Positions 5,591 through 22,628 of a stretch of DNA of 48,273 nucleotides are shown in pieces. This DNA is from a virus. Every line of letters starts with the position of its first letter. The stretch's first letter is position 1. Location of the stretch: IMG/VR virus record IMGVR_UViG_3300041809_000332, positions 1-48,273 of that record. The stretch is one strand, 5' to 3'. Both the position numbers and the translations under genes were made by a program. The notes under the pieces were generated by a model. That model was not told the DNA's origin. It was given only the letters and a program-made list of their open reading frames with translations, and made no database searches.

Positions 5591-7528
5591 GTGCAACTTA
5601 CTGACGAGCAAATCAGAGCCGTGGCTCATCCAATAGGGCGTCCCGCTTGTTTGATAGCTGGTGCCGGTTCTGGTAAGACCGCTACCTTGACAGAGAGAGT
5701 GCGATGGTTGATGACTCAAGGGGTGCCTCCTTTTCGGATTGCGGCCATAACCTTTACCTCGAAGGCGGCATCCGAACTGGAGAGACGTGTTTGTGGCTCT
5801 GACGATAACCTTACCACCGAGAGACCGCACATCAGCACCATCCATAGTCTCGCCTTGAACGCCATTCGTAAAGACCCCGAGGGATTTGGGTTCGAGGGCA
5901 GGGTTACACCAATGGATGATTACGACCAGTCTCAAATGGTGAAGAAGCTCATCGAACGGAGTAAGCCTGAACCGGGGGAGGAACACAACCCCTATCGGTT
6001 TCTTGAGAAGCTCGGCTACCATCGGGCACGGGGAATAGGATTCTCTGCCGACTACACTGATGAAGTACATGAGGAGGCTCTCGAACACCACGCCGGATGC
6101 TCTGCCCTAGAAGACTGGGAAACCAAGATTTGGTACAGCTTCGAGGAAGAGAAGAAAAAGTGCCGGATGGTGGATTTTGACGACATGATTCATTTGGTTG
6201 TGCGCCGGGGCGAGACCGAGGAAACATGGCGGACGGCGGTGCAGAAACGCTTCCACCACGTTCTACAGGATGAGTCTCAGGACACCAGTCCTGTCCAGTG
6301 GCGGTTCGTCAACCTGCTCCTCGGGGATGATAACCCTAACCTGTATTGCGTCGGCGACCTTGCCCAGTCCATCTACGCATTTCAGGGGGCGGAGCCACGA
6401 CTGCTCAAGGAGTTTAGTGAGGGTTGGCGTGGACACGTGCCGGACCTTTACCGCATCAGCCGTAATCACCGGAGCCTTCCCGCCATCATCCGGTTGTCCA
6501 ACCGCATCAACGCCACGATGACCGAGGTTATTCCCCTCAAGATGCAAGTGTTCCGGGGAATGGAGGGCGACAAAGAAGTAGAGACCGGCACCGCCCGGCT
6601 TATCCGCTCCAGCACGCCGGGAGAGATTGCCAATATCATCGCTCGGGAGATTCAACACGACAATGGCGTTAAGGGAAAGCACATTGACTACAAGGATAAT
6701 GCCATCCTCGTGCGTAGCGCCATACAGGTCCGGGACCTAGAAGGTGCGCTCGTTCGCCTGCGTATCCCCTATATCGTCCGGGGCGGCAGGGGTCTACTTC
6801 AAACCGAGGAAATCAAAGACCTGCTCTCCTATTTCCGGCTGGCGGTCAATCCCAAGGATTACACCGCTTTCAGCCGGGCAATCAGCACCCCTAAACGGGG
6901 AGTCGGGGACGTGGCTATCGAGAAGATACGGCTCCGGGCGGAAGCTGACCACGGCGGTGACCTACTGGCGGCGTGCGGCAGCAATGACAAGCTGGACCTA
7001 TTCTCTCGGGCAATGGGAGAAGTAAAGAGCCGTCTCTCTTCTCCAATGGCCGCTTTCGAGGAAATCATTAACCTCTTTCGGTACAAGGACTACATCAATC
7101 AGAAGTATGCACGGGAGGCCAGCAAGGCACGGACCAAGTGTGAGAACATTGACCGGTTCGTTTCCTTGGTGGAAGGTTTGGTGAATGAGTCCGGCCTGTC
7201 CGCCGAAGACCTTGTGTTTCAGCTTGCCATGGAGCGCCCCACCGAAGAAGATGACGAAGAGGGGTCCGTAACCATCAGTACCATTCACAGCGCCAAGGGA
7301 TTAGCGTGGAAAAAGGTTTTTCTTACGAATTGTGTGGAGGGCTCACTTCCTCATAAGTTTAGCAAAGGCTCTGAAAGTGAGGTTGAGGAAGAGCGCAGAT
7401 TGTTGTATGTCGCCTGCACGAGGGCTAGAGATTCCTTAGCCATTTGTGTACATTCTCTTGAGCCACGGGGACCGAATACTATATCCGTGACCCCGTCACG
7501 CTTTCTTAAGGAGATTGGGGTCGTCTAG
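5591..7528 (+). CDS. UvrD/Rep/PcrA-type superfamily 1 DNA helicase
   Basis: The GTG at 5591 (GTGAGG upstream) gives 645 residues with the full SF1A set. There is a Q-motif near TDEQ, Walker A AGAGSGKT (23-30), motif Ia ITFTSKAA, and a Walker B-like LQDESQDTSP (DEsQD, where DEYQD is usual). Motif III is GDLAQSIYAFQGAEP, motif IV RNHRS, motif V STIHSAKGLAWKKVFL, and motif VI EEERRLLYVACTRARD. It is an ATP-driven 3'-5' unwinding enzyme, probably for phage replication or repair; T4 Dda and UvsW play comparable roles but are different families. GIY-YIG genes flank it on both sides, and the second overlaps its 3' end by 33 bases. Codon use at both ends looks less GC-rich than in the middle. Confidence 0.93.
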   Translation: MQLTDEQIRAVAHPIGRPACLIAGAGSGKTATLTERVRWLMTQGVPPFRIAAITFTSKAASELERRVCGSDDNLTTERPHISTIHSLALNAIRKDPEGFGFEGRVTPMDDYDQSQMVKKLIERSKPEPGEEHNPYRFLEKLGYHRARGIGFSADYTDEVHEEALEHHAGCSALEDWETKIWYSFEEEKKKCRMVDFDDMIHLVVRRGETEETWRTAVQKRFHHVLQDESQDTSPVQWRFVNLLLGDDNPNLYCVGDLAQSIYAFQGAEPRLLKEFSEGWRGHVPDLYRISRNHRSLPAIIRLSNRINATMTEVIPLKMQVFRGMEGDKEVETGTARLIRSSTPGEIANIIAREIQHDNGVKGKHIDYKDNAILVRSAIQVRDLEGALVRLRIPYIVRGGRGLLQTEEIKDLLSYFRLAVNPKDYTAFSRAISTPKRGVGDVAIEKIRLRAEADHGGDLLAACGSNDKLDLFSRAMGEVKSRLSSPMAAFEEIINLFRYKDYINQKYAREASKARTKCENIDRFVSLVEGLVNESGLSAEDLVFQLAMERPTEEDDEEGSVTISTIHSAKGLAWKKVFLTNCVEGSLPHKFSKGSESEVEEERRLLYVACTRARDSLAICVHSLEPRGPNTISVTPSRFLKEIGVV

Positions 7529-8332
7529 TAACCATTTTTTTGCATGAGCATAAAGGGCTGCCTTTGAGTAATTCCTTTTCTGTTCTTCGGTGCGCCCTGG
7601 TAATTTTCTTCCGATGTTTGCCAAGCTAATTTTCTTCTTAGTCTCTTCGGACAGCTTTCGCCCAAGCTGACCCTCTGAGTTCTTTTTACGGATTTCGGGG
7701 TCCTTTTGCCATCCGGTAGCATTGCGAAGGCTAGTAGCCTCGGACAACTTTTTCCTGCGTTCCTCTGGCCACTGGTATGGTTGTTTTAGTAATTTGAGTT
7801 TGTGTCGTAGTGCCGCCAGCCTCCTACAATGTGCTGCCAGCTTGGCACGGTGCTCGGGGGACTTGGGCTTCCCCTTACCGGCTATCGACATGTTTTTCTT
7901 AGCTTCATCCGTATGCTTGACACCTTTGTTCCAAGCAGGTTTCCCTGATAAAGCAGCACTGAGCTTGTCCCTCGTTGCTTGGGTGCATACCCTGTTTCTG
8001 TTGGCTTCTCCTATCCGCTTGCGGCCATCCTCCGATAGTTCCACCTTTCCTGCCTTGCCGCTCATATTATATCCGCCTTTGAACACGTCAAGCAGGGTAA
8101 TATAGTGGTCTTCCCGTTCTAGCAGAAGCTCCTTCGGGCATTCCTCAACGACCAGCCAGTGCCAGGGGGTCTCCCCGTGCTTGTTCCATGAGTTCTGGAG
8201 CTTTAGGGAGTGGTGCTTGCCACGGCGCAGCATCTCTCGGTGCTTGCGCCAACGGTATTCGATGTTCTTGGCGCTCCCAATGTAGGATTTTCCACTCTTG
8301 GCATTGAAGATGCAATACACCCCGCAGGTCAT
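7496..8332 (-). CDS. GIY-YIG homing endonuclease with several NUMOD3 repeats
   Basis: The N-terminus reads CGVYCIFN with SYIGSA eleven residues on, the catalytic Arg in EYRWRKHR and the Glu in LLEREDHYI. Residues 100-260 contain repeated NUMOD3-like units (SEDGRKRIGEANRN; TDEAKKNMSIAGKGK; SEETKKKISLANIGR) that contact DNA. At 278 residues it is longer than its paralogue at 4894-5526 because it has more repeats. Its 3' end runs 33 bases into the helicase C-terminus, so the helicase gene is likely its ancestral target region. A GGGAGG ribosome site precedes the ATG. Confidence 0.9.
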   Translation of the reverse strand: MTCGVYCIFNAKSGKSYIGSAKNIEYRWRKHREMLRRGKHHSLKLQNSWNKHGETPWHWLVVEECPKELLLEREDHYITLLDVFKGGYNMSGKAGKVELSEDGRKRIGEANRNRVCTQATRDKLSAALSGKPAWNKGVKHTDEAKKNMSIAGKGKPKSPEHRAKLAAHCRRLAALRHKLKLLKQPYQWPEERRKKLSEATSLRNATGWQKDPEIRKKNSEGQLGRKLSEETKKKISLANIGRKLPGRTEEQKRNYSKAALYAHAKKWLLDDPNLLKKA

Positions 8333-10995: not shown

Positions 10996-12099
10996 ATGTA
11001 TTTTTTCCTGTTAATGCTTCTACCCATACTTTTTTGTCTCGCCGCTTACCTGCTCCACAAGCAAGGAATTCTCGTGGAGAATCACGGTCTCGGTGAAGCT
11101 CTTTGCACCCTTGTTGTATGCGCCATTATCACGGGTGCCGGGCTGGCACTGGAGTTCTACGGCGTCACGACCGACACTGAGATTTGGAGCGGCTCCATTA
11201 CCCAAAAACAGCGGGAAGAAGTCTCCTGCCGTCACTCCTACAAGTGCAACTGCTACACCACTACCGACAAGGATGGTCACTCCGAGGAACACTGCTCAAC
11301 TTGCTATGAACATAGCTTCGACGTGGATTGGGACCTTTATTTCTCCACGGGCAAGGAAATGAGCATTGACACTGTTGACCGGCAGGGGTTGACCATGCCT
11401 CCCCGGTGGGCTGCTGCCTATGTGGGCGAGCCGACCACCGAGGCCCACACCTTCACCAATTATCTGCTCGCCAGTCCTGATAACGTCCTGATGCACCATG
11501 ACGTGCCAACCGGGTTCTCCGGGCTGATTCCCAAGTACCCGGACGAGGTATACGACTACTACCGCACCAATCGTTTCCTGCTCGCCGGGGGCGTGCCAGT
11601 TAAGGGGGAGAAAGAGTGGCGTTGGCTGCTGGACAAGATGAACGCCGACCTTGGGTCCGTTAAGCAGGTCAACATTATCATCATCCTTGCCTATACCAAC
11701 GACCCCCGCTATGAGTACGCTCTTGAGAAAGAGTGGGTGGGCGGCAAGAAGAACGACCTTATTGTGGTCATCGGCACCACGCAGTATCCCAAGATTGATT
11801 GGGTCCGCATTGTATCTTGGTGTACCTCTGCGGACATCAAGGTCCTGCTCCGGGACGAGATTCAAGACATCGGAACGCTGGACAAACGGGACGAGATTAT
11901 GGGAGACATCCGCAAGGAAGTGACGACTCATTTCCACCGTCGCCACATGAAAGACATGAAGTACCTTGCCGCCTCCCACCAGCCAAGTGGATGGGTTATG
12001 TTCTTCATCCTCTTCTTGGAACTGGCAGCGGCTTTCGTTGTGCCCATCGCCTATAGCAATATTGAGGATAACTATAGCTATCGGCGGCGGTATTACTAA
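10996..12099 (+). CDS. TPM-like integral membrane protein, first gene of the membrane operon
   Basis: The 367-residue protein has two N-terminal membrane segments (about 3-22 and 33-53). A Cys/His-rich segment near 78-102 (CRHSYKCNCY, then HCSTCYEH) may bind metal. A soluble alpha/beta domain spans about 190-320, and one membrane segment lies at about 333-352. The alpha/beta domain reads VNIIIILAYTNDPRYEYALE, then KNDLIVVIGTTQ and WVRIVSW, the strand order and wording of TPM domains (YgcG/Psb32 type). TPM proteins commonly sit beside LemA genes, and the next gene is LemA-like. The TPM assignment is inference from pattern. The ribosome site is AGGGAGG. Confidence 0.75.
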   Translation: MYFFLLMLLPILFCLAAYLLHKQGILVENHGLGEALCTLVVCAIITGAGLALEFYGVTTDTEIWSGSITQKQREEVSCRHSYKCNCYTTTDKDGHSEEHCSTCYEHSFDVDWDLYFSTGKEMSIDTVDRQGLTMPPRWAAAYVGEPTTEAHTFTNYLLASPDNVLMHHDVPTGFSGLIPKYPDEVYDYYRTNRFLLAGGVPVKGEKEWRWLLDKMNADLGSVKQVNIIIILAYTNDPRYEYALEKEWVGGKKNDLIVVIGTTQYPKIDWVRIVSWCTSADIKVLLRDEIQDIGTLDKRDEIMGDIRKEVTTHFHRRHMKDMKYLAASHQPSGWVMFFILFLELAAAFVVPIAYSNIEDNYSYRRRYY

Positions 12100-12113
12100 A
12101 CAGGAGAAAACAC

Positions 12114-12683
12114 ATGAAGGGATTAGTGATTGGAGTGCTCATTTTCGTCGCAGTGCTGATTTTCGGTGGGGTGTCTTTGTTCTTCGGCTACATCGGCTTC
12201 GGTAACGAAGCGAACCGGTTCGAGAACAGCATCACCGCTGCCTACAGCAAGAACCAGACCGTGTATGACAACGGCTGGAAAACCGTCGTGGAGAAGGCGC
12301 AGGTGCCCAAGGAATACACGGCGCAATTGAAAGACTTGTACACCAGCGCTCTGACCAGCCGCTACGGGGCGAATGGAAGCCAAGCGTTGCTCCAGTTCAT
12401 CAAGGAACAGAACCCGACCATCGACGCCAGCGTGTTCAAGGAAATTCAGCAGTCGATTGAAATCTTCCACGCCGACTTCAATCAGTCGCAGGTCGAACTG
12501 GTATCCCGGAAGCAGGAGTATCAGAACCTTTACACGGCGACCACGTCCGGGCGCTTCTATAACATGATTGCGCATTACCCGCACATCGACATGTCGAAGT
12601 ACGATATTGTCACGTCCGCCAAGACGCAGCAGGACTTCGACACGAAGCAAGCCGGGCCGCTGGACGTTTTCGGCAAGAAGTAA
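12114..12683 (+). CDS. LemA-like membrane-anchored helical protein
   Basis: The N-terminal membrane anchor (about 5-27) is followed by a four-helix bundle. Residues 33-60 (NRFENSITAAYSKNQTVYDN) and the later FNQSQVELVSRKQEYQNLY and GRFYNMI stretches follow the LemA layout, in which an N-terminal anchor leads to helices with a conserved YN-like turn. The length of 189 residues is normal for LemA. Cellular LemA proteins have no firmly known function but pair with TPM membrane proteins, as here. Spacing to the upstream gene is 14 bases, with CAGGAGA as ribosome site. Confidence 0.75.
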   Translation: MKGLVIGVLIFVAVLIFGGVSLFFGYIGFGNEANRFENSITAAYSKNQTVYDNGWKTVVEKAQVPKEYTAQLKDLYTSALTSRYGANGSQALLQFIKEQNPTIDASVFKEIQQSIEIFHADFNQSQVELVSRKQEYQNLYTATTSGRFYNMIAHYPHIDMSKYDIVTSAKTQQDFDTKQAGPLDVFGKK

Positions 12684-13181: not shown

Positions 13182-13832
13182 ATGAGCTTCAAGAGTTTGA
13201 CAAAAGCCTTGCACGACGTTGTTTTGGAAGAGTCACCGGAAGAAAAAACGACGGGGACCCATACGCCGACACCAGCACCGGCACCGATAGCAGCTTACGC
13301 TGCGGCCCCGGCAATGGCTGTTCCTTCAACTTCACCCGTAACCGTGGACGCCGGGGCCATCTATGGTGTTCTCCTCGAAAAGACCAACTTCGAGTCAACA
13401 CCGATGCACCAGACCATCCACAAGTATACCGAGGCGATGAAGTCAGCGCCTTTGGACGACCTTACGAAGTTGAAAATCGCTTTCGCCCAAGCCACGCAAC
13501 TGGACCATATCACCCCGGACATGGTGCGGAAGGAGTTCGCTACCCTGAAACAGAACTTGGCGGCGGAACACGATAAATTTTCCATTGCAATTCAGGGAAA
13601 AACCAGTACTATACAGGGTACACGCCAAACGGCGGACCAACTGGTCTCACAGATTGCTGCCAAGCAAAAGGAAATCGAAGACCTCAACCAGAAAAGGACG
13701 AATCTCTTGGTGGAGGCTGAGACCGAGACACAGCACGTGGCAGCATTGACGGCCCAGTTCGAGGCTGCTTCCGTTCGTCGGACACAGGAACTTGACAAAC
13801 AACTGTCCGATTTAGAAACGGTGATGAAGTAG
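13182..13832 (+). CDS. Coiled-coil protein with proline/alanine linker (216 aa)
   Basis: A short N-terminal helix (1-20) is joined by a Thr/Pro/Ala-rich linker (24-55) to a helical domain. From about 125 to the end there is a long coiled coil (QLVSQIAAKQKEIEDLNQKR is representative). No membrane segment is visible, so it is likely cytoplasmic. Lying before another coiled-coil protein with membrane anchors, it may form a filament or complex with that protein. No family was recognised. Confidence 0.7.
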   Translation: MSFKSLTKALHDVVLEESPEEKTTGTHTPTPAPAPIAAYAAAPAMAVPSTSPVTVDAGAIYGVLLEKTNFESTPMHQTIHKYTEAMKSAPLDDLTKLKIAFAQATQLDHITPDMVRKEFATLKQNLAAEHDKFSIAIQGKTSTIQGTRQTADQLVSQIAAKQKEIEDLNQKRTNLLVEAETETQHVAALTAQFEAASVRRTQELDKQLSDLETVMK

Positions 13833-13868: not shown

Positions 13869-14939
13869 ATGAGCGACTTTAGTCAAGGAATGGCAATTCA
13901 GAATTACACCCCGAAGAGTTTCTGGAAGAAACCCGAGGGCGTACCCGGTATGCTGTTGCTGGCTGCGGGAGTGGTCGGCGGTCTGTACGGCATGTATCTC
14001 GTGTTGCCATTCCTGATTCTCATCGTGGGCAACACTATCGAGCTTGCCGCTCTTCTCGGCGTGCTTGGTCTCATGGGATACATCGTCACCAACGGCACCG
14101 TGCGGACCTTGGCAAAGAACATCTTCCAGTCGATTTGCCGGGGAGTTGCGAGCCTCTATACAACGGTTGACCCAATCGGCATCCTGCGCAATAACTTGGA
14201 TGATATGAAAACCGAAAAGGGTCAGCTTGACCAGACCATCCAGCGCTTCGCTGGCAGTGACAACAAACTCCAAGACAAGATTACGGAGAAGCAGGGGTTG
14301 ATTCAGAAGTCGCTCTCCCTGTCTCAGCAATGCGAGCGAACGCTTGCCACGAAGCGAGACCCTCTGGAGCGTGAGCGCCTCACCCTCAAACAGCAAACGG
14401 AGTTGCAGAAGGCCGGACTGCTCGATACCGGGCTTAAGCAGCTACAGATGCTCAAAGACGAGACGGCTAAGATGCTGGTGACGTTCCGCCACTGGAGCCA
14501 GATAGCTGACAGCAAAATCCAGCGCACGGAATTTCAGGTGGAATTCTTGGCGGACCAGCGCTCCACCATCTTGGATGCCAAGAGCACGCTTAGCATCGGT
14601 CAGCGCTTGCTGCGGGGCAACCCGGAGCAATTGAAGCTGGTGGATGCAGCCATCGAATACTTGGCTGAGGATGCTTCTCGGACCATCGGGGAAATCCGTG
14701 AGTTCAGCCGCTACAGCGATAAGCTGCTGACGGACATCGACATCGAAAACGGAGCACAGGCGGAGTCTGCAAAGGAACACTTCGCCGTGTTCAACCAAAA
14801 GCTTCTCTCGGCAAGTAACAGTCAGCCGGTGAGTATTCTTGACAGCATCGTTCCCGACTCTAACAAGACGCCGGTAGCGGTCCCGGTGCAAGAGAAGAGC
14901 TATGACCAGTTGCTTGAGAAGATAATCGAAGGAAAGTAA
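13869..14939 (+). CDS. Membrane-anchored coiled-coil protein, PspA-like
   Basis: Two membrane segments at about 24-48 and 55-78 are followed by roughly 250 residues of coiled coil. The arrangement of an early helix pair (NLDDMKTEKGQLDQTIQRF), then KRDPLERERLTLKQQTELQK, then a long antiparallel helix recalls PspA/IM30 proteins of the ESCRT-III superfamily, which brace damaged membranes. Here, unlike PspA, the domain is tethered by two helices. The resemblance is by pattern only. The ribosome site is CAGGAAAGGA. Confidence 0.65.
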   Translation: MSDFSQGMAIQNYTPKSFWKKPEGVPGMLLLAAGVVGGLYGMYLVLPFLILIVGNTIELAALLGVLGLMGYIVTNGTVRTLAKNIFQSICRGVASLYTTVDPIGILRNNLDDMKTEKGQLDQTIQRFAGSDNKLQDKITEKQGLIQKSLSLSQQCERTLATKRDPLERERLTLKQQTELQKAGLLDTGLKQLQMLKDETAKMLVTFRHWSQIADSKIQRTEFQVEFLADQRSTILDAKSTLSIGQRLLRGNPEQLKLVDAAIEYLAEDASRTIGEIREFSRYSDKLLTDIDIENGAQAESAKEHFAVFNQKLLSASNSQPVSILDSIVPDSNKTPVAVPVQEKSYDQLLEKIIEGK

Positions 14940-14964: not shown

Positions 14965-16770
14965 ATGACCAGAATTAAGCCACAAGCCAAGATTTTCTTG
15001 ATTGTGATTGCGTTAGTCGCCGTGTTCTTCGGGCTACGAACCGCCGCAGAGCATGGGTTGATTCCCACTCCGGGCGTCATGAAGGCGCTCGTCCCACAAC
15101 GGGCTGTGTTGCCGGATGTCAAGGATGCGCAGGTTGCCGATGTCACCCCTGCCGCCCTGCCCTCGGAAGGTGCAACCCAAGTAGCAGCTACTTCCATCCG
15201 TGGAGCAATTTGGGAATGGAACGCACAGATGGGCTTCATCTATGCCAACGGCGGAGCACAGACCACCAAGGGTTCGCTGATGGAAAAGCATGGGGTGAAC
15301 CTGACGCTCTACCGGCAGGACGACACGGGCAAGATGCAGGAAGACCTTATCGCCTGTGCCTCTGAACTGCATGACGGAGCTACGCAATGCTCCAAGGGTG
15401 CGAATTTCGTTGATATCATGGGGGATGGTGCCGGTCAGTTCGCTGCCGCTGTCAACCCGCAATTGGTGAAGCTCGGACCCGCATATAAGCTCAAGGTTAT
15501 CGGTGCGTTCGGCTATAGCCGGGGAGAGGATGCCTTCATGGCACCCCCTGCCGTTAAGCAAGACCCACAGAATGCCAAGGGGCTGTTGGTCGAAGGTGTT
15601 TTACGTGATGGTGACTGGAATATCGCCCTGAAATGGGAAGGCGACAACAGCATCAAGAACAACCCGGACGAGAAGACCTACGACCCGGATGCAGTCAACT
15701 GGGTAAACGCCCCCGATTATAACACGGCTGCTACCGACTATGTCGCCGGGAAATGTGATGACCGCAAGGTGGTCAAGGATGGTCATTTGACGGGCGAGAC
15801 GAAGCACGTATGCGTCAACGCCATTGTCACTTGGACACCGGGCGACGTTACTGCCGTCACACAAAAGGGCGGACTGGTTAAGGTCGTTAGCTCTAAGCAA
15901 TATCGTTCGCAGATGCCTTGCGTGATTGTCGGCCCCGGAAAGTTCTTCTCCGACAACCGGCAAGAATTCGAGGGACTGATGGCTGCGGCGTTCGAGGGCG
16001 GCGACCAGATTAAGGCTTACGACAAGGCGCTCCATAAGGCGTCGGATATCTCCGCCAAGCTCTACAACGACCAAGATGGTGCCTACTGGTACAAGTACTT
16101 CAAGGGCACCACGCAGAAAGACCCGCAGGGGTTGACGGTCGAACTGGGCGGCTCGGCGGTGTGCAATTTGGCGGATAACCTGATTCTGTTCGGGTTGAAT
16201 CCGGGCACCAATGACAACTTCCGCTCCACGTACACCATCTTCTCCAACATCGTGGCGCAGCAATACCCCGATATCGTCAAGGCCACACCTATTCCTCTGA
16301 TTGCCGAGGTTGAGGATAAGTCTTTCGTCACCGGGGCGCAGGCGGTGTTGAGCAACACCAATGAGGTTGGGGCAGTGGCGGATGTTCCCGCTTACACGCA
16401 AGCCGGAACTGAGGTTGTTTCCAAGCGCAGCTACGCCATCAACTTCATGACGGGCAGCGCCGACCTTACGCCAGCCGGTGTGCAGCAGCTTCGTGACTTG
16501 AAAGACAGCTTGGCTATCACGGGACTGTACATCAAGGTGGACGGGTATACCGACAACACGGGAAACGAACAGACCACCAACATCCCGTTGTCGGAAGCTC
16601 GGGCACAGGCAGTGAGAGCCTTCCTCCAGCGGACAGCGCCGGGCACCTTCCCGAGCAAGCGGTTCGCTTCGGTGGAGGGTCATGGGTCAGCCAACCCTGT
16701 GGCATCGAACAGCACGGCTGACGGTCGGGCTTCTAACAGACGAGTTGAAATCACCCTGATTGGAAACTAA
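14965..16770 (+). CDS. Solute-binding-like protein fused to an OmpA peptidoglycan-binding domain
   Basis: The 601-residue protein has an uncleaved-looking N-terminal membrane anchor (9-27) and a linker. A large alpha/beta region (about 78-470) has the look of an ABC-type substrate-binding protein (nitrate/taurine-like class). The C-terminal OmpA-like domain (about 490-600) shows FMTGSADLTPAG, DGYTDNTGN, LSEARAQAVRAFL and ASNRRVEITL; the Asp and Arg of such motifs hold diaminopimelate in peptidoglycan. The protein should span the periplasm, anchored in the inner membrane and gripping the wall. The ABC permease and ATPase follow at once, which supports the binding-protein reading. Six cysteines in the middle domain could form periplasmic disulfides. 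Confidence 0.85.
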   Translation: MTRIKPQAKIFLIVIALVAVFFGLRTAAEHGLIPTPGVMKALVPQRAVLPDVKDAQVADVTPAALPSEGATQVAATSIRGAIWEWNAQMGFIYANGGAQTTKGSLMEKHGVNLTLYRQDDTGKMQEDLIACASELHDGATQCSKGANFVDIMGDGAGQFAAAVNPQLVKLGPAYKLKVIGAFGYSRGEDAFMAPPAVKQDPQNAKGLLVEGVLRDGDWNIALKWEGDNSIKNNPDEKTYDPDAVNWVNAPDYNTAATDYVAGKCDDRKVVKDGHLTGETKHVCVNAIVTWTPGDVTAVTQKGGLVKVVSSKQYRSQMPCVIVGPGKFFSDNRQEFEGLMAAAFEGGDQIKAYDKALHKASDISAKLYNDQDGAYWYKYFKGTTQKDPQGLTVELGGSAVCNLADNLILFGLNPGTNDNFRSTYTIFSNIVAQQYPDIVKATPIPLIAEVEDKSFVTGAQAVLSNTNEVGAVADVPAYTQAGTEVVSKRSYAINFMTGSADLTPAGVQQLRDLKDSLAITGLYIKVDGYTDNTGNEQTTNIPLSEARAQAVRAFLQRTAPGTFPSKRFASVEGHGSANPVASNSTADGRASNRRVEITLIGN

Positions 16771-16771
16771 C

Positions 16772-17554
16772 ATGACTTCTTTGTCTGTGTTTTCTCCAAA
16801 TCGGAATGTCTCGAAGGGGGCGCTTAGGACTATGCTCTTCCTGAGTGCCCTCTTCATCTTCCTGTTCTGGCTAGCGTCCCCGCTGGTGTTTCTGCCCACC
16901 ATGGGCGAAACCTTCAAGGCATTCGGCGAGCTATGGCATCAGGGCATCGCCGGGGAACTGGTCAGCAGTCTTATCTCCAATATGGAAGCGCTCGGATTGG
17001 CTTCCCTGATATCCTTGGTGCTCGCCTACACCACCGTGACAGCCTTTGGGCGTATGATGGTGGAGTTTATCAGCAAGCTGAGATTTTTGTCGATGGTTGG
17101 CTTGAGTTTCTTCTTCACCGTCTTGGCCTCCAACCAACATCAGCTTAAGCTGAGCCTTCTCGTGTTTTCGGTGACCGTGTTCTTCGTCACTAGCATGGCG
17201 GACGTGGTAGCGAACGTGCCGAAGCAACAGTTTGACCTTGCTCGGACCCTACGCATGAGCGACTGGCACATGATATGGGAAGTGGTGGTCTTGGGGCAAG
17301 CTGACCAAGCCTTCGACTGCTTGCGTCAGAACGCCGCCATATCGTGGATGATGCTCCCCATGTTCGAGGGCATGACTCGTTCGGATGGCGGAATCGGAGC
17401 CATGCTTCTCAACGCCAACAAGCATTTCTACCTTCCAGCCGTGATGGCGATTCAGATTTCCATCCTGCTGTTGGGCCTCGGGCAGGACTACATGATTGGG
17501 TTCATCAAAAACACCTTGTGCCCCTATTCCGTGCTGGCTAAGGAAAGGAAGTAA
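16772..17554 (+). CDS. ABC transporter permease (binding-protein-dependent type)
   Basis: The ATG at 16772 is one base after the previous stop and gives 260 residues. Five to six membrane segments are visible (about 24-46, 68-95, 105-125, 130-150, 190-215 and 225-245). A cytoplasmic loop, VPKQQFDLARTLRMSDWHMI (about 150-169), matches the EAA loop of type I importer permeases, where the ATPase docks. It is followed by an ISWMMLPMFEGM segment like the conserved region after the loop in nitrate/taurine-class permeases. A single permease gene implies a homodimer. Confidence 0.88.
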   Translation: MTSLSVFSPNRNVSKGALRTMLFLSALFIFLFWLASPLVFLPTMGETFKAFGELWHQGIAGELVSSLISNMEALGLASLISLVLAYTTVTAFGRMMVEFISKLRFLSMVGLSFFFTVLASNQHQLKLSLLVFSVTVFFVTSMADVVANVPKQQFDLARTLRMSDWHMIWEVVVLGQADQAFDCLRQNAAISWMMLPMFEGMTRSDGGIGAMLLNANKHFYLPAVMAIQISILLLGLGQDYMIGFIKNTLCPYSVLAKERK

Positions 17555-17555
17555 C

Positions 17556-18434
17556 ATGGCCTCACTTTATCCATACAGCTACGGTGCGACCCTGATGAAG
17601 ATAGAGGATGTCAGCCTCTATGCCTCGCCCGATGGAGCAAGTTTGCTGGAATCCCCCGAGGCAAATGGAAGGCCCATATTACGTGGGGTCTCTGCCGAAA
17701 TCAAAAAGATAGTCCGTCCCGGACAGGTGCAGGGTCAGGTGGTAACCATCCTCGGACCTAGTGGCATGGGGAAGACACGGTTATTCCGTATCATTGCTGG
17801 TTTGGACAAGCCTACCTCCGGGCGGGTGGTAGCGAACGGCCTTAACCGTCCCGTCCATGCCGGGGAAGTCGGTGTCGTGGCGCAGGAGTGCCCGTTATTC
17901 GCTCACCGGACAGTTCTCTCCAATCTCATGCTTGCCGCAAAGCATAAGGAAAAGGACTCCAAGGTAGCTCACGATAAGATTATGGCTATGATGGCGCTCT
18001 TCGGATTGGAAGACCACATTCACAAGTACCCCGCTCAGTTATCCGGGGGCCAGCGCCAGCGGTGCGCCATCATCCAGCAGATTCTTTGCAGTGACCATTT
18101 TCTCTTGATGGACGAGCCTTTCTCTGGATTGGATATCGTCACCGAGGATACGGCCCTCCAGCTAATCCTCAAAGTGGCAAACATGGATGACTTGAACACC
18201 ATCATACTGGTCACCCATGACGTGTCAGCGGCGGTCTCGGTTTCCGACCATATCTGGATGCTCGGTCGTGAGCGTGGGCCGGATGGTCAGCCCATCCCCG
18301 GTGCCAAGATTATTCACACGTATGACCTGATTGAGGCCGGGCTATGTTGGGAGCAGTGGAATCCCCGTGGAATCACCCGCCCCGCCATCGCTGAGTTTGT
18401 GCGCCAATTGAAAGAAGATTTCTATAATCTGTGA
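17556..18434 (+). CDS. ABC transporter ATP-binding protein
   Basis: The ATG at 17556 (AAGGAAAGG upstream) gives 292 residues. All ATPase motifs are present: Walker A GPSGMGKT (67-74), a Q-loop in VAQECPLF, signature LSGGQRQR (162-169), Walker B LLMDEPFSGLD (about 183-193) and the H-loop THD. No catalytic residue is missing. It should form a dimer under the permease and drive transport, or a mechanical change in the OmpA-tethered partner as in MacB or FtsEX-type systems. The C-terminal 60 residues form an extra helical extension. Confidence 0.93.
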   Translation: MASLYPYSYGATLMKIEDVSLYASPDGASLLESPEANGRPILRGVSAEIKKIVRPGQVQGQVVTILGPSGMGKTRLFRIIAGLDKPTSGRVVANGLNRPVHAGEVGVVAQECPLFAHRTVLSNLMLAAKHKEKDSKVAHDKIMAMMALFGLEDHIHKYPAQLSGGQRQRCAIIQQILCSDHFLLMDEPFSGLDIVTEDTALQLILKVANMDDLNTIILVTHDVSAAVSVSDHIWMLGRERGPDGQPIPGAKIIHTYDLIEAGLCWEQWNPRGITRPAIAEFVRQLKEDFYNL

Positions 18435-18443
18435 GGAGGCTCC

Positions 18444-19385
18444 ATGAACAAACCAAGCTTTGGGGTCATTGTCGGCAGGTTTCAGGTCCATGAACTTCAT
18501 GACGGACACATGGAGTTGTTCCGCATCGTCAAAGGGCGGCACAACCGTATCATCGTATTCCTTGGCTGCAACAAGGTCGGTCCAACCCGGCATGACCCGT
18601 TGGACTTCGAGACCCGGAAGAAGATGATTCAGGCGAAGTTCCCTGAGTTCACCGTGCTGCCCCTGCGGGACTGCAAGACTGACGAGCAGTGGTCGGACAG
18701 TTTGGATGAACGTATCTCCGAAGCCGTGGGAGAAGTTCCCCACGAAGTGGTATTATACGGTAGTAGGGACTCGTTTGCTCCCTTCTATCACGGGAAGCAC
18801 AAAGTCAAGGAACTGGAAATCGAGGTTCCGGCGTCCCTTACCAGCACGGATATCCGTGCCAAGCTGACCAATAACGTCATGGAAAGCCCCGACTTCCGGG
18901 CGGGCGTCATCTACGCCATGAACCAACTGTGGCCCCGGCTCGTTACCGTGGTGGACATCGCTATCCTGCACAAGGGGGAGCATAAGACTTTTCTTCTTCT
19001 TGGCAAGAAGCCCGATGACACGTTCTGGCGCTTTCCGGGCGGGCACGCAATATTCAGCACGCCAACCTTCGAGGCTGACGCCAAGAAGGAAGCGTTCGAG
19101 GAGACGGGTCTGGACATCCAAGACCTTGAATATGTCGGCTCTCGCAAGGTCGATAGCTGGCGCTGGCGGTCGGAGCCTTCGGAAGGTTTCAAGACCGTTT
19201 TCTTCATGTCGTATAGCATGACCATGGGTGGGAAAGGCAGTGATGACCTTGCTGAAACACGGTGGTTCCCACTTGATGCAATCTCCGTAGAGGATATGGA
19301 AAAAGAACATCAGCCCCTCTTCGAGATGCTGCAACAACATCTTACCAAAAAGGAGAACACACATGCCCAAAGCACTCAAGCTTAA
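18444..19385 (+). CDS. nadM: Bifunctional NMN adenylyltransferase / Nudix hydrolase
   Basis: Residues 1-165 form a nucleotidyltransferase of the NadM type: GRFQVHELHDGH contains the HxGH site (H19-D-G-H22), and TSTDIR near 133-138 matches the ISGTxIR motif. It joins NMN and ATP to make NAD+. Residues 175-300 form a Nudix domain, with a box at about 199-224 ending KEAFEETGLD (Lys where Arg is usual in REUxEExGU); in bacterial homologues this part cleaves ADP-ribose. The next gene, overlapping by 23 bases, makes NMN from nicotinamide, so the pair is a complete two-step NAD+ salvage route. A GAGGAGG site precedes the ATG. Confidence 0.92.
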   Translation: MNKPSFGVIVGRFQVHELHDGHMELFRIVKGRHNRIIVFLGCNKVGPTRHDPLDFETRKKMIQAKFPEFTVLPLRDCKTDEQWSDSLDERISEAVGEVPHEVVLYGSRDSFAPFYHGKHKVKELEIEVPASLTSTDIRAKLTNNVMESPDFRAGVIYAMNQLWPRLVTVVDIAILHKGEHKTFLLLGKKPDDTFWRFPGGHAIFSTPTFEADAKKEAFEETGLDIQDLEYVGSRKVDSWRWRSEPSEGFKTVFFMSYSMTMGGKGSDDLAETRWFPLDAISVEDMEKEHQPLFEMLQQHLTKKENTHAQSTQA

Positions 19386-20793
19386 CCCCATTTTAAGGAC
19401 AGACAGCTACAAGCTGTCGCACTGGTTTCAGTATCCTTCGGATGCGGAATATGTGTACAGCTACCTCATGAGCCGGGGTGGTTTCTGGCAGCACACGCTG
19501 TTCTCCGGGCTACAATACATCCTCGCCGCATACTTCGAGGGCAAGGTGTTCACCAAGAAAGATGTCCACGAAGCTGCCCGCATTTGTCACCGGCATTTCG
19601 GCAACGATGAAGTATTCAACTTCAACGGCTGGATGCGGTTGCTGGAAAAGCATGGCGGCAAGTTGCCCCTGCGCATCCGGGCGGTCAAAGAAGGCACCGT
19701 GGTCCCCATCAAGAACGTGTTGATGACCATCGAAAACACTGACAAAGAATTTCCGTGGCTGACCAACTGGGCGGAAACCCAACTCCTGCAAGTGTGGTAT
19801 CCCATCACGGTTGGGACCCTGTCTTTTGAAATCAAGCAGACCATCGGCAGAGACCTCGTGCGTACCGGTGACCCGGCTGGACTCGGTTTCAAGTTGCATG
19901 ACTTCGGGTACAGGGGCGTTAGCTCTCAGGAGACCGCCGCCATCGGCGGAGCCGCTCACCTTGTTAATTTCATGGGCACTGACACCATGGCGGCTCTTTC
20001 GCTTCTGGAGCAGTTCTACGATTGTCCCTGCGCCGGTTTCTCCATCCCGGCGATGGAGCACTCCACCGTTACCTCGTGGGGTGAGGATGCCGAGGCGGAA
20101 GCTTATGCCAACATGCTGGAGAAGGTCCCGGCTGGCCTCGTGGCACTCGTGGTAGACAGCTACGACACCCACAACGCCGTTGCTAACATCTTCGGCGGCA
20201 AGTTGCGGGAAACAATCCTGCGGCGTGACGGCGTGGTGGTTCTCCGCCCGGATAGCGGTGACCCCTGTGTCGTCATCGAAGACATGTTCAACGCCATTGC
20301 CGAGAAGTTTGGCTTCGAGACAAACGCCAAGGGTTGGAAGGTCCTGCCTAAGCAGGTCCGGGTCATCCAAGGCGACGGAGTCAACTACCAGAACATCTGC
20401 CGCATCAACAGTCACCTGACACGGGCCGGGTGGTCCATGGACAACTGGGGCTACGGCATGGGCGGTGCTTTGCTTCAACAGCAGAACCGTGATACCATGC
20501 GGTTCGCCATCAAATGCTCCGCCATCTGCCGGGACGGTCGTTGGGAAGATGTCCACAAGACGGTCAAGACTGACCCGTCCAAGGCATCCATCGGTGGCAG
20601 GTTCTCCCTCTTGGAGTTGTCGGACGGCGAGTTTGAGACTGTGGAGCAGGAATACGATATGAAGCTCGCCACAGGCCACGAAGACAAGCTGGAGACAGTA
20701 TTTGAAGATGGGGTCATTAAACGGCACCAGACCCTTGACGAAGTCCGGGAAATCTCCAGCGGCTATGACCGCTACAACCGGGAAGATGACTAA
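19363..20793 (+). CDS. nadV: Nicotinamide phosphoribosyltransferase
   Basis: The 476-residue protein has the NAMPT/NadV length and wording: NPILRTDSYKLSHW at the start, FKLHDFGYRGVSS and GGAAHLVNFMGTDTM in the middle, then IPAMEHSTVTSWG, VVDSYD and VVLRPDSGDP. These build the nicotinamide and phosphoribosyl pyrophosphate sites. It converts nicotinamide and PRPP to NMN, which the upstream enzyme turns into NAD+. Such pairs in phages are described as rebuilding NAD+ after host NADase defences (the NARP2-type route). An AAAAGGAGA site lies in the overlapping upstream gene. Confidence 0.95.
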   Translation: MPKALKLNPILRTDSYKLSHWFQYPSDAEYVYSYLMSRGGFWQHTLFSGLQYILAAYFEGKVFTKKDVHEAARICHRHFGNDEVFNFNGWMRLLEKHGGKLPLRIRAVKEGTVVPIKNVLMTIENTDKEFPWLTNWAETQLLQVWYPITVGTLSFEIKQTIGRDLVRTGDPAGLGFKLHDFGYRGVSSQETAAIGGAAHLVNFMGTDTMAALSLLEQFYDCPCAGFSIPAMEHSTVTSWGEDAEAEAYANMLEKVPAGLVALVVDSYDTHNAVANIFGGKLRETILRRDGVVVLRPDSGDPCVVIEDMFNAIAEKFGFETNAKGWKVLPKQVRVIQGDGVNYQNICRINSHLTRAGWSMDNWGYGMGGALLQQQNRDTMRFAIKCSAICRDGRWEDVHKTVKTDPSKASIGGRFSLLELSDGEFETVEQEYDMKLATGHEDKLETVFEDGVIKRHQTLDEVREISSGYDRYNREDD

Positions 20794-20816
20794 TGCCGAA
20801 ATGTGAGGGAGAGAAT

Positions 20817-21809
20817 ATGTCAGCATCCGACGATTGGGCGGAACTGCAAGGTAGGATGAACGATAAGGCAGCAAGGGATTCAGACCAAGGTGTTCCCCGT
20901 GGAAATAAGACTAGCGCCCAAGGTCCCACGGGGAGCGAGGAGGCCGATGATGTTATCACCATGAACGTCTGCCAGTGGCAAGTACATCCTAACGGTAGCT
21001 TTTCCGCTTCCTCCAAGACCACTGATACGCTTCCTCCGGGGGTCTACAATCTCTCTCAGGACAGCGACGGGAGGATATATTTCCTCAAGTCCAAGCCAAT
21101 GACCGATACCCTTTACGACCTTGGGGAGACGGTTACCCAACAGGTCATCGACTCCATCGAAACCTTTTGGGATTCCAAGGCGAAGTTCTCCGCTATGGGC
21201 ATCTTGTTCAAGCGGGGTATCCTCCTGTGGGGCAACGCCGGGTCCGGTAAGACGGCGACGGTCGCTCTGCTTATTGAAAAGCTCATCAAGCGGGGCGGCA
21301 TTGTCATCATCTGCCAGCATCCGGGCATGGCAATCAACGCTCTGCGGGTCCTTCGCCGGATAGAGCCAGACCGCCCGCTTATCGTCATCATGGAAGATAT
21401 TGAGGAAGTGATTGAGCACCGGGGTGAGCACGATTTGCTCAGCCTTCTGGACGGTGAGCATCAGGTAAACAACGTGGTGCATATCGCCACGACGAACTAC
21501 CCTGAAAACCTTGGGCCTCGCATCGTCAACCGTCCAAGCCGCTTTGACGAAGTGATAAAGGTCCCCATGCCGGATGAATCGGCCCGACGCATGTATCTGA
21601 CCCGTGCCATCGGAGAGAAATTCACGAAAGAGCAAATAGCCGGTTGGGCGAAGGAAACCAACGACCTCAGCATTGCCCACCTGCGGGAGTTCGTGGTCGC
21701 TACGCAATGCCTTGACCGGCCATTTGACGAAACCATCGAACGGCTCAAGGGGATGAAGATTAAGCCGAAGTCCAGTGAAGGCGTCTCGCATCCGGGCTTT
21801 AACAAGTGA
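20817..21809 (+). CDS. AAA+ ATPase
   Basis: The ATG at 20817 follows GAGGGAGA; ATG 20793 is an alternative with a TAATG overlap. Of 330 residues, the first 110 are a low-complexity start and a small beta-rich domain. The AAA+ core has Walker A GNAGSGKT (about 139-146), Walker B VIMEDIEEV (about 188-196), sensor 1 HIATTNYPE and the arginine-finger region RPSRFDE. The class looks like FtsH/p97-type remodelling ATPases, and no protease domain is attached. The substrate is unknown. It follows the NAD+ genes in one operon. Confidence 0.9.
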   Translation: MSASDDWAELQGRMNDKAARDSDQGVPRGNKTSAQGPTGSEEADDVITMNVCQWQVHPNGSFSASSKTTDTLPPGVYNLSQDSDGRIYFLKSKPMTDTLYDLGETVTQQVIDSIETFWDSKAKFSAMGILFKRGILLWGNAGSGKTATVALLIEKLIKRGGIVIICQHPGMAINALRVLRRIEPDRPLIVIMEDIEEVIEHRGEHDLLSLLDGEHQVNNVVHIATTNYPENLGPRIVNRPSRFDEVIKVPMPDESARRMYLTRAIGEKFTKEQIAGWAKETNDLSIAHLREFVVATQCLDRPFDETIERLKGMKIKPKSSEGVSHPGFNK

Positions 21810-21816
21810 GGGTAGT

Positions 21817-22011
21817 ATGACTATCAAAGGTGCCGGAATCGTTGAACTGGACATCGACCTGTATTGTTCAAAGTGTGGTCGGCCTCTGACCGCTACGTTC
21901 GATGAGCCTTACATTGAGTACTACGCTCGGGTTTTGAGCCGCCTGCATGTGGACCCGTGCCAGCACTGCAAAGAGGACCCTGACGCAGAATACTGTGGAA
22001 TAATGTCATGA
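21817..22011 (+). CDS. Small zinc-ribbon protein (64 aa)
   Basis: The ATG at 21817 (AGGGTAG upstream) gives 64 residues with CSKCG near 17-21 and CQHC near 48-51, a likely zinc ribbon with a helical insert. The stop overlaps the RNA ligase start (ATGA). The function is unknown. Confidence 0.75.
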   Translation: MTIKGAGIVELDIDLYCSKCGRPLTATFDEPYIEYYARVLSRLHVDPCQHCKEDPDAEYCGIMS

Positions 22012-22628
22012 AGCATTACCCCGAAATCGCCGGGTCAGCCCATGCTCCCCTCGGGAGTCCCTGCCTTGCCTTCGAGAAATACGACGGCATTAACCTGCGG
22101 TGGGAGTGGTCGAAGAAACGAGGCTGGTACAAGTTCGGTACCCGGACACAACTCTTTGACCACACTGACCCCCTCTTTGGTCAGGCGATTCCTATCTTCC
22201 TCAACACCATGGGGGATGAGGTTGCCCGGCGTTGCCTTGAGATTGAAAGGGGGGTTCGGGAAATCATCGTTTTTACTGAGTTCTTCGGCCCCAAGACGTT
22301 TGCCGGTAAGCACGTGCTGGAAGACCCCAAGGAGCTTCGCCTCTTCGACGTGAACCTCTACAAACGGGGTATCATGCACCCTCGCCGGTTTTGGCAGACC
22401 TTTCAAGACCTGCCCTACTGCGCCCGGCTGATTTATCAGGGGAATCTTAATCAACCTTTCATTGATGATGTCCGGGCGGGAAAGTACCCTGTTTGGGAGG
22501 GAGTCGTTGCCAAGCTTACCGAGACCCACATTAACAACATGTTCAAGATTAAGACCGCTGCCTATCTCAAGCGGCTGCAAGAAATCTTCGGGAACGAGTA
22601 CGCCAATTACAAACGCTACTGGGAGTGA
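22008..22628 (+). CDS. RNA ligase (T4 Rnl2/nucleotidyltransferase superfamily)
   Basis: The 206-residue protein carries the covalent nucleotidyltransferase motifs. Motif I is EKYDGINLRW with K24 as the AMP-accepting lysine, followed by a motif IIIa-like stretch VFTEFFGPKTF. Motif IV is WEGVVAK and motif V is MFKIKT. Length and order fit a minimal RNA ligase that seals 3'-OH/5'-phosphate ends with ATP. A HAD phosphatase that could prepare RNA ends lies two genes downstream. No polynucleotide kinase P-loop gene is visible in this window. Confidence 0.85.
   Translation: MKHYPEIAGSAHAPLGSPCLAFEKYDGINLRWEWSKKRGWYKFGTRTQLFDHTDPLFGQAIPIFLNTMGDEVARRCLEIERGVREIIVFTEFFGPKTFAGKHVLEDPKELRLFDVNLYKRGIMHPRRFWQTFQDLPYCARLIYQGNLNQPFIDDVRAGKYPVWEGVVAKLTETHINNMFKIKTAAYLKRLQEIFGNEYANYKRYWE

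Follow-up and report, generated by a model that had tools for sequence, protein, structure and literature searches.

We describe a phage-borne cassette of five genes that recurs in very large phages and that, in the window (the whole stretch of DNA analyzed, 48,273 nucleotides of IMG/VR virus record IMGVR_UViG_3300041809_000332), forms a tight block on the + strand in the order soluble coiled-coil protein, transmembrane PspA-like protein, solute-binding protein–OmpA fusion (SBP-OmpA), ABC permease and ABC ATPase. The novelty lies in the cassette being carried by phages, whereas the domain order of the fusion and the corresponding bacterial operon are already known, because Ravi et al. 2024 (PMC11237479), writing on the phage-shock-protein response, described them. 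The preliminary description of this DNA recognized the fusion but missed the tailed phage, the five-gene cassette, the PspA/ESCRT-III-like partner and the bacterial precedent for this architecture in the paper of Ravi et al.

The third, middle gene of the cassette (14965–16770, + strand) is an uninterrupted reading frame of 601 residues that starts with ATG. The AlphaFold2 model of its product, built on an alignment with 11 homologs (mean pLDDT 82, pTM 0.76), shows a membrane helix at the N-terminus, then a large domain of two lobes, and a further domain at the C-terminus. The helix (residues 6–29; 14980–15051, + strand), which encloses a hydropathy peak at residues 10–28, agrees with the membrane anchor proposed earlier. 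Because the fusion has no lipobox cysteine, this anchor is most simply read as a plain, uncleaved helix.

The two-lobe domain (residues 72–465; 15178–16359, + strand) superimposes on TauA with a Z-score of 27.2 and an rmsd of 3.1 over 291 residues, followed by CmpA (Z 25.2), NrtA (24.5) and SsuA (23.0). Foldseek concurs (E 1e-10 to 1e-6), and the model thus displays the periplasmic-binding fold of the NitT/TauT (NMT1-type) cluster, as anticipated for the middle region when a binding-protein-like domain was first suggested there; the matches to TauA, CmpA and NrtA are the very similarity whose absence would have spoken against that suggestion. At the level of sequence the middle region of the window's own fusion matches no Pfam or NCBIfam model, and the best NCBIfam names for the fusion (YiaD, PA1041 and TssL) concern its OmpA part only and lie far under their cut-offs. 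Three phage homologs do reach the family: those of the 735 kb phage (LR756501) and Lak-A1 match NMT1_2 (PF13379; E 7e-10 and 2e-9, respectively), and gp250 of phage G matches NMT1 (PF09084, E 5e-8). Mean identity over all homolog pairs is 57% in the binding domain versus 20–25% in the anchor and linkers, which speaks for a specific ligand. The two linkers flanking the domain, of about 40 and 18 residues, are poorly conserved.

The C-terminal domain (residues 484–601; 16414–16767, + strand) is an OmpA peptidoglycan-binding domain. Pfam OmpA covers residues 494–592 (E 5e-16, 59.2 bits against a curated cut-off of 27.2), and residues 485–600 superimpose on the peptidoglycan-binding domain of TagL, and on others of the OmpA type, with a Z-score of 16.8. 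In OmpA, diaminopimelate is held by an aspartate and an arginine, here D530 and R546. These two residues, together with N591-R592-R593, are kept in 92 of the 92 homologs that cover the positions, and the DGYTDNTG and ASNRR motifs are intact, just as the preliminary description had them. It also proposed that the protein is fixed to both membrane and wall at a transporter. Since the binding fold, the anchor and the OmpA domain reside in one chain and the permease and ATPase genes lie directly downstream, such dual tethering is a fair expectation from sequence and model.

The permease (260 residues; 16772–17554, + strand) has six hydrophobic segments by hydropathy and an EAA-type loop, ARTLRMSDWHMIWEVV..., whose conservation is supported by an alignment with phage and bacterial homologs; it matches NtrB (TIGR01183) with an E-value of 2e-7. 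The ATPase (17556–18434, + strand) matches ABC_tran (E 7e-25) and retains Walker A (GPSGMGKT), the LSGGQ signature, Walker B (LLMDEP) and the H-loop. These are the features of a type I ABC importer, and judged by its motifs the cassette is a complete set of binding protein, permease and ATPase. The first gene of the cassette (13182–13832, + strand) encodes a soluble coiled-coil protein of 216 residues with no informative Pfam match; most of the phage loci and of the Acidobacteriota loci have a homolog at the equivalent position.

The second gene (13869–14939, + strand) encodes a protein of 356 residues, which is very probably a membrane-anchored, remotely similar member of the ESCRT-III superfamily, of the PspA/Vipp1 type. 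Its model contains helices at residues 27–53 and 56–74, followed by a long hairpin (102–161/165–248) of the kind formed by α1 and α2/3 in PspA and Vipp1, with a pLDDT of about 90 in the hairpin region and 65 overall. The top ten PDB matches in Foldseek are all Vipp1 or PspA (E 7e-4 to 2e-2). The model gives a Z-score of 12.8 against Vipp1 (7o3w), a value that for helical folds is suggestive only, and in VIA-align other helical proteins score almost equally to Vipp1/PspA. The window protein itself has no Pfam match; two of its 16 homologs match PspA_IM30 weakly (best E 7e-5), and hhalign aligns the family with a bacterial PspA set over 90 columns at a probability of 72. In the phage fragment MT835556 the protein in the equivalent place exceeds the PspA_IM30 cut-off (locus L105; E 8e-11) and carries one membrane segment. 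A tblastn search with the window protein against annotated phages returned no match, and the Lak and phage G versions are reached by profiles only. Among the Pfam-scanned subset of window ORFs, PspB, PspC and PspF of the classical PSP system have no match.

The window is a tailed phage contig, as shown by its matches to phrog_2839, a tail sheath family (E 2e-24), and to phrog_2522, a family of major head proteins (E 8e-41). Relatives of the fusion occur on ten IMG/VR contigs at 42–68% identity, with more from further scans, and the five-gene order is kept in phage loci L001, L003–L006, L009, L011 and L012 as well as in Lak megaphages; most IMG/VR loci with sufficient flank have the identical order, sometimes with small ORFs interposed. 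Hallmark genes accompany several carriers: a capsid gene on the 479 kb IMG/VR contig of L007 and on the contig of L010, a terminase on the contigs of L004 and L005 and on LR756500 and LR756501, and a sheath on the contig of L096. This search used a few capsid, terminase and sheath families, so that a contig with no match is not thereby argued to be anything other than phage; the phrog_2839 sheath has no match on the other carriers, an uninformative result, as the control was likewise silent.

A search of annotated phages, with the fusion from the 735 kb phage as query, shows it to be encoded in all 15 Prevotella Lak megaphage records (540–552 kb), and the two Lak genomes examined, translated with code 15, contain the full block in order. 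The fusion is also present in Bacillus phage G, in the 595 kb LR756511 and in a 38 kb fragment, and the cassette is found in phages of 735 kb and 462 kb and on the 479 kb IMG/VR contig; the complete carrier genomes among annotated phages are all at least 462 kb. Phage G has a rearranged cassette, comprising permease gp243, ATPase gp245, coil-like gp246, gp247, which has a single membrane segment, and the fusions gp249 and gp250. The last two are adjacent SBP-OmpA genes (L101, 6992–10197), although the host is Gram-positive, and the TDN motif of the OmpA domain is changed to VNN in gp249. LR756511 (L104, 6282–14844) likewise has a rearranged set of two divergent SBP-OmpA proteins, permease and ATPase; one of the two fusions has a degraded OmpA C-terminus from which NRR is missing. 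A scan of viral contigs with the 735 kb phage protein returned no relative. Some records filed as phages (CAKLQH02/CAKLQF02 and AGRM01/AFYI01), which carry genes such as yiaD, tauA and artP, have the look of bacterial contigs.

The cassette is not a module of all giant phages, a notion ruled out by six phages of 385–642 kb (LR756502, LR756504, LR756508, Atu_ph07, SCTP-2 and XacN1) in which profile A7 has no match; giants without it include phages of 642, 636, 490 and 484 kb. Because several very large phages do without the cassette, it is recurrent, and neither universal nor essential to being giant.

The preliminary description had put forward, as a check, a search for the same domain order in bacteria. 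Two peptide patterns were scanned against 84,980 species genomes and picked out 92 loci that encode the fusion, from Acidobacteriota, Armatimonadota, Myxococcota, Bacteroidota and a small number of other phyla. Sampled prevalence is low, about 2–3% (five of 199 Acidobacteriota, and full-length matches in four of 198 Bacteroidota, both samples including the genome that served as centre). In the Acidobacteriaceae loci L014–L016 the gene order is exactly that of the phages, and L014 adjoins ordinary chromosomal genes (CofH/MqnC-like, nitroreductase and MFS). In Solibacter-like Acidobacteriota a genuine PspA (PF04012, E 3e-15) takes the place of the membrane protein, and a 300-residue protein and an AAA+ ATPase come after; the operons at L050 (6541–14030), L036 and L059 read coil, PspA, SBP-OmpA, permease, ATPase, 300-residue protein and AAA+. 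The 300-residue family (alignment A6) is spread over several phyla and has no informative Pfam match; kinship between it and the PspA-like gene is unsupported (hhalign probability 5).

The closest relatives of the window fusion are on Acidobacteriota chromosomes, at 70% identity. On the fusion tree, the window and seven other phage sequences are nested in an Acidobacteriota clade, and the phage locus L007 lies among Armatimonadota-type sequences, whose extra genes it shares. The distribution of phage sequences needs at least five changes, of which at least two are forced by well-supported branches; the tree was built quickly and several of its branches are long, so that the number of transfers is indicative only. 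The topology suggests more than one acquisition by phages. Between the window and L014 the fusion has a dN of about 0.23 and a dS of about 2.2, and for the permease and ATPase a dN of 0.3 stands against a dS of 1.8 and 4.1, respectively. With dN well under dS in all three, these genes are, by codon comparison, under strong purifying selection.

Directly after the cassette lie a nadM/Nudix-like gene (18444–19385, + strand) and a nicotinamide phosphoribosyltransferase gene, nadV (19363–20793, + strand), which are possibly a phage NAD salvage pair. NadV-like genes are also found within 10 kb of the cassette in L001 (512–2050) and L005 (4174–5700). A tie between the cassette and NAD salvage is a weak lead only, as most other loci have no adjoining nadV or nadM/Nudix-like genes. 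The next gene encodes an AAA+ ATPase (20793–21809, + strand) with CDC48/FtsH-like matches. It lies three genes away from the cassette. Its candidacy as a missing Vps4-like partner was rejected, as phmmer finds no homology to the AAA+ of the bacterial operon at L050. Just upstream of the cassette (10996–12683, + strand) are two proteins of conserved phage families, phrog_2087 (367 residues) and phrog_1383 (189 residues), the latter having an N-terminal membrane segment, an annotation as virion structural and a sequence that by eye is LemA-like. Elsewhere in the window, 22008–22628 (+ strand) is RNA ligase-like by eye (KYDG motif), and 7496–8332 (– strand), which overlaps the end of a helicase gene, resembles a GIY-YIG homing endonuclease by eye.

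We propose, at about even chances, that the cassette is a phage version of a bacterial envelope module, in which a wall-tethered importer and an ESCRT-III-like partner maintain the envelope of the infected cell. The OmpA domain would hold the importer in place at the wall, and the permease would receive a small ligand of the NitT/TauT class from the binding domain; the ESCRT-III-like partner would assemble on the inner membrane at importer sites, organizing or repairing the membrane. During the long infection by a giant phage, the module could keep the cell membrane sealed and a needed solute taken up. The five genes are found together in very large phages of unrelated lineages and in several phyla of bacteria; what counts against the proposal is that some bacterial operons include an AAA+ ATPase to which no gene of the phage cassette corresponds. 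The wider statement, that some of the largest phages repeatedly captured a wall-anchored importer and an ESCRT-III-like remodeller as an envelope maintenance and feeding station for long infections, is made more tentatively, as a possibility somewhat short of probable.

The main rival to envelope maintenance is a plain auxiliary importer for one scarce nutrient (an organosulfonate, a nitrogen source or a vitamin precursor), the tether and the PspA-like gene being passengers of the bacterial operon from which it was acquired. The complete ABC set and a fold nearest TauA, CmpA, NrtA and SsuA fit this, as do the nicotinamide phosphoribosyltransferase-like genes that the window, L001 and L005 have close to the cassette, and the contrast in conservation between binding domain and anchor or linkers is what a specific ligand would lead one to expect. 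Passengers, however, would hardly be retained as the coil and PspA-like genes are across strongly diverged phages, and no conserved metabolic-enzyme neighbor was found at the bacterial cassette loci; we consider this explanation rather unlikely, if still a serious contender. The module might instead alter the inner membrane or wall and so block DNA injection by other phages. In the PSP response, PspA-family proteins do react to proteins of phages located in the membrane. In addition, Al-Shayeb et al. (PMC7162821) suggested that membrane and surface proteins of huge phages may influence susceptibility to other phages. Yet exclusion needs no full ATP-driven importer with a strongly conserved binding domain, and the same operon is chromosomal in bacteria, which makes superinfection control improbable.

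Slightly less probable again is a mechanosensor along the lines of the wall-tension sensing raised in the preliminary description, in which the two anchors, in membrane and wall, would exert a pull on the binding domain and wall tension would gate the permease: both anchors are indeed on one chain, with loosely conserved linkers on either side of the binding domain, but the fusion contains no identified mechanical element and OmpA-type anchors usually just position proteins. Misfiling of bacterial fragments as virus contigs could be suspected from the shortness of some IMG/VR carriers (L008, 14.5 kb) and from the Acidobacteriota chromosomes nearest to the window protein. The head and sheath genes of the window, the terminase, capsid or sheath genes on other carriers, and the complete Lak and phage G genomes with the cassette make this explanation scarcely credible overall, and such misfiling is refuted for the window itself, for the Lak phages and phage G, and for LR756500 and LR756501.

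How phages above 450 kb keep the host intact and supplied while their genomes are copied and packed is an open problem, for which a module that the 735 kb phage shares with the Lak megaphages and with Bacillus phage G, which can be cultured, is a concrete, testable candidate. The envelope-maintenance proposal connects viral infection with the bacterial ESCRT-III superfamily and wall-tethered transport, and the cassette gives a little-studied bacterial operon an experimentally accessible phage relative.

No report of the phage-borne module was found in the literature searched, which mostly left aside subscription journals and supplements, and the main texts of the Lak, huge-phage and marine megaphage papers examined mention neither the transporter nor OmpA. 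The Jug huge phages (PMC12363816) have a pspA-like gene adjoining terD; they resemble the present carriers in having a PspA-family gene in a huge phage, but that paper mentions neither an ABC transporter nor an OmpA protein. The closest known system is the bacterial operon of Ravi et al. (PMC11237479), in which PspA/Snf7 and an AAA+ ATPase occur with an ABC ATPase, a permease and a PBPB-OmpA protein (e.g., OGG56892.1), and which was tied to PspA/Snf7 membrane remodelling and solute transport. Its gene set recurs here, PspA/Snf7-like protein, SBP-OmpA, permease and ABC ATPase together, the fusion again having a PspA or a membrane-anchored Snf7-like protein as its neighbor; in contrast, the present cassette is phage-borne and lacks the AAA+ ATPase of the operon, and SBP-OmpA is present twice in phage G and in LR756511. 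With the NitT/TauT importers (TauABC, SsuABC, NrtABCD and CmpABCD) the cassette shares the predicted binding-domain fold, the NtrB-like permease and the class of ATPase, whereas the phage binding protein carries a membrane anchor and an OmpA domain on the same chain, and its binding domain exceeds TauA in length by about 100 residues. Like the domains of OmpA, Pal, MotB and TagL, the C-terminal domain of the fusion has the fold and the diaminopimelate Asp/Arg pair, but its partner is a solute-binding protein rather than a barrel, a motor or a T6SS anchor.
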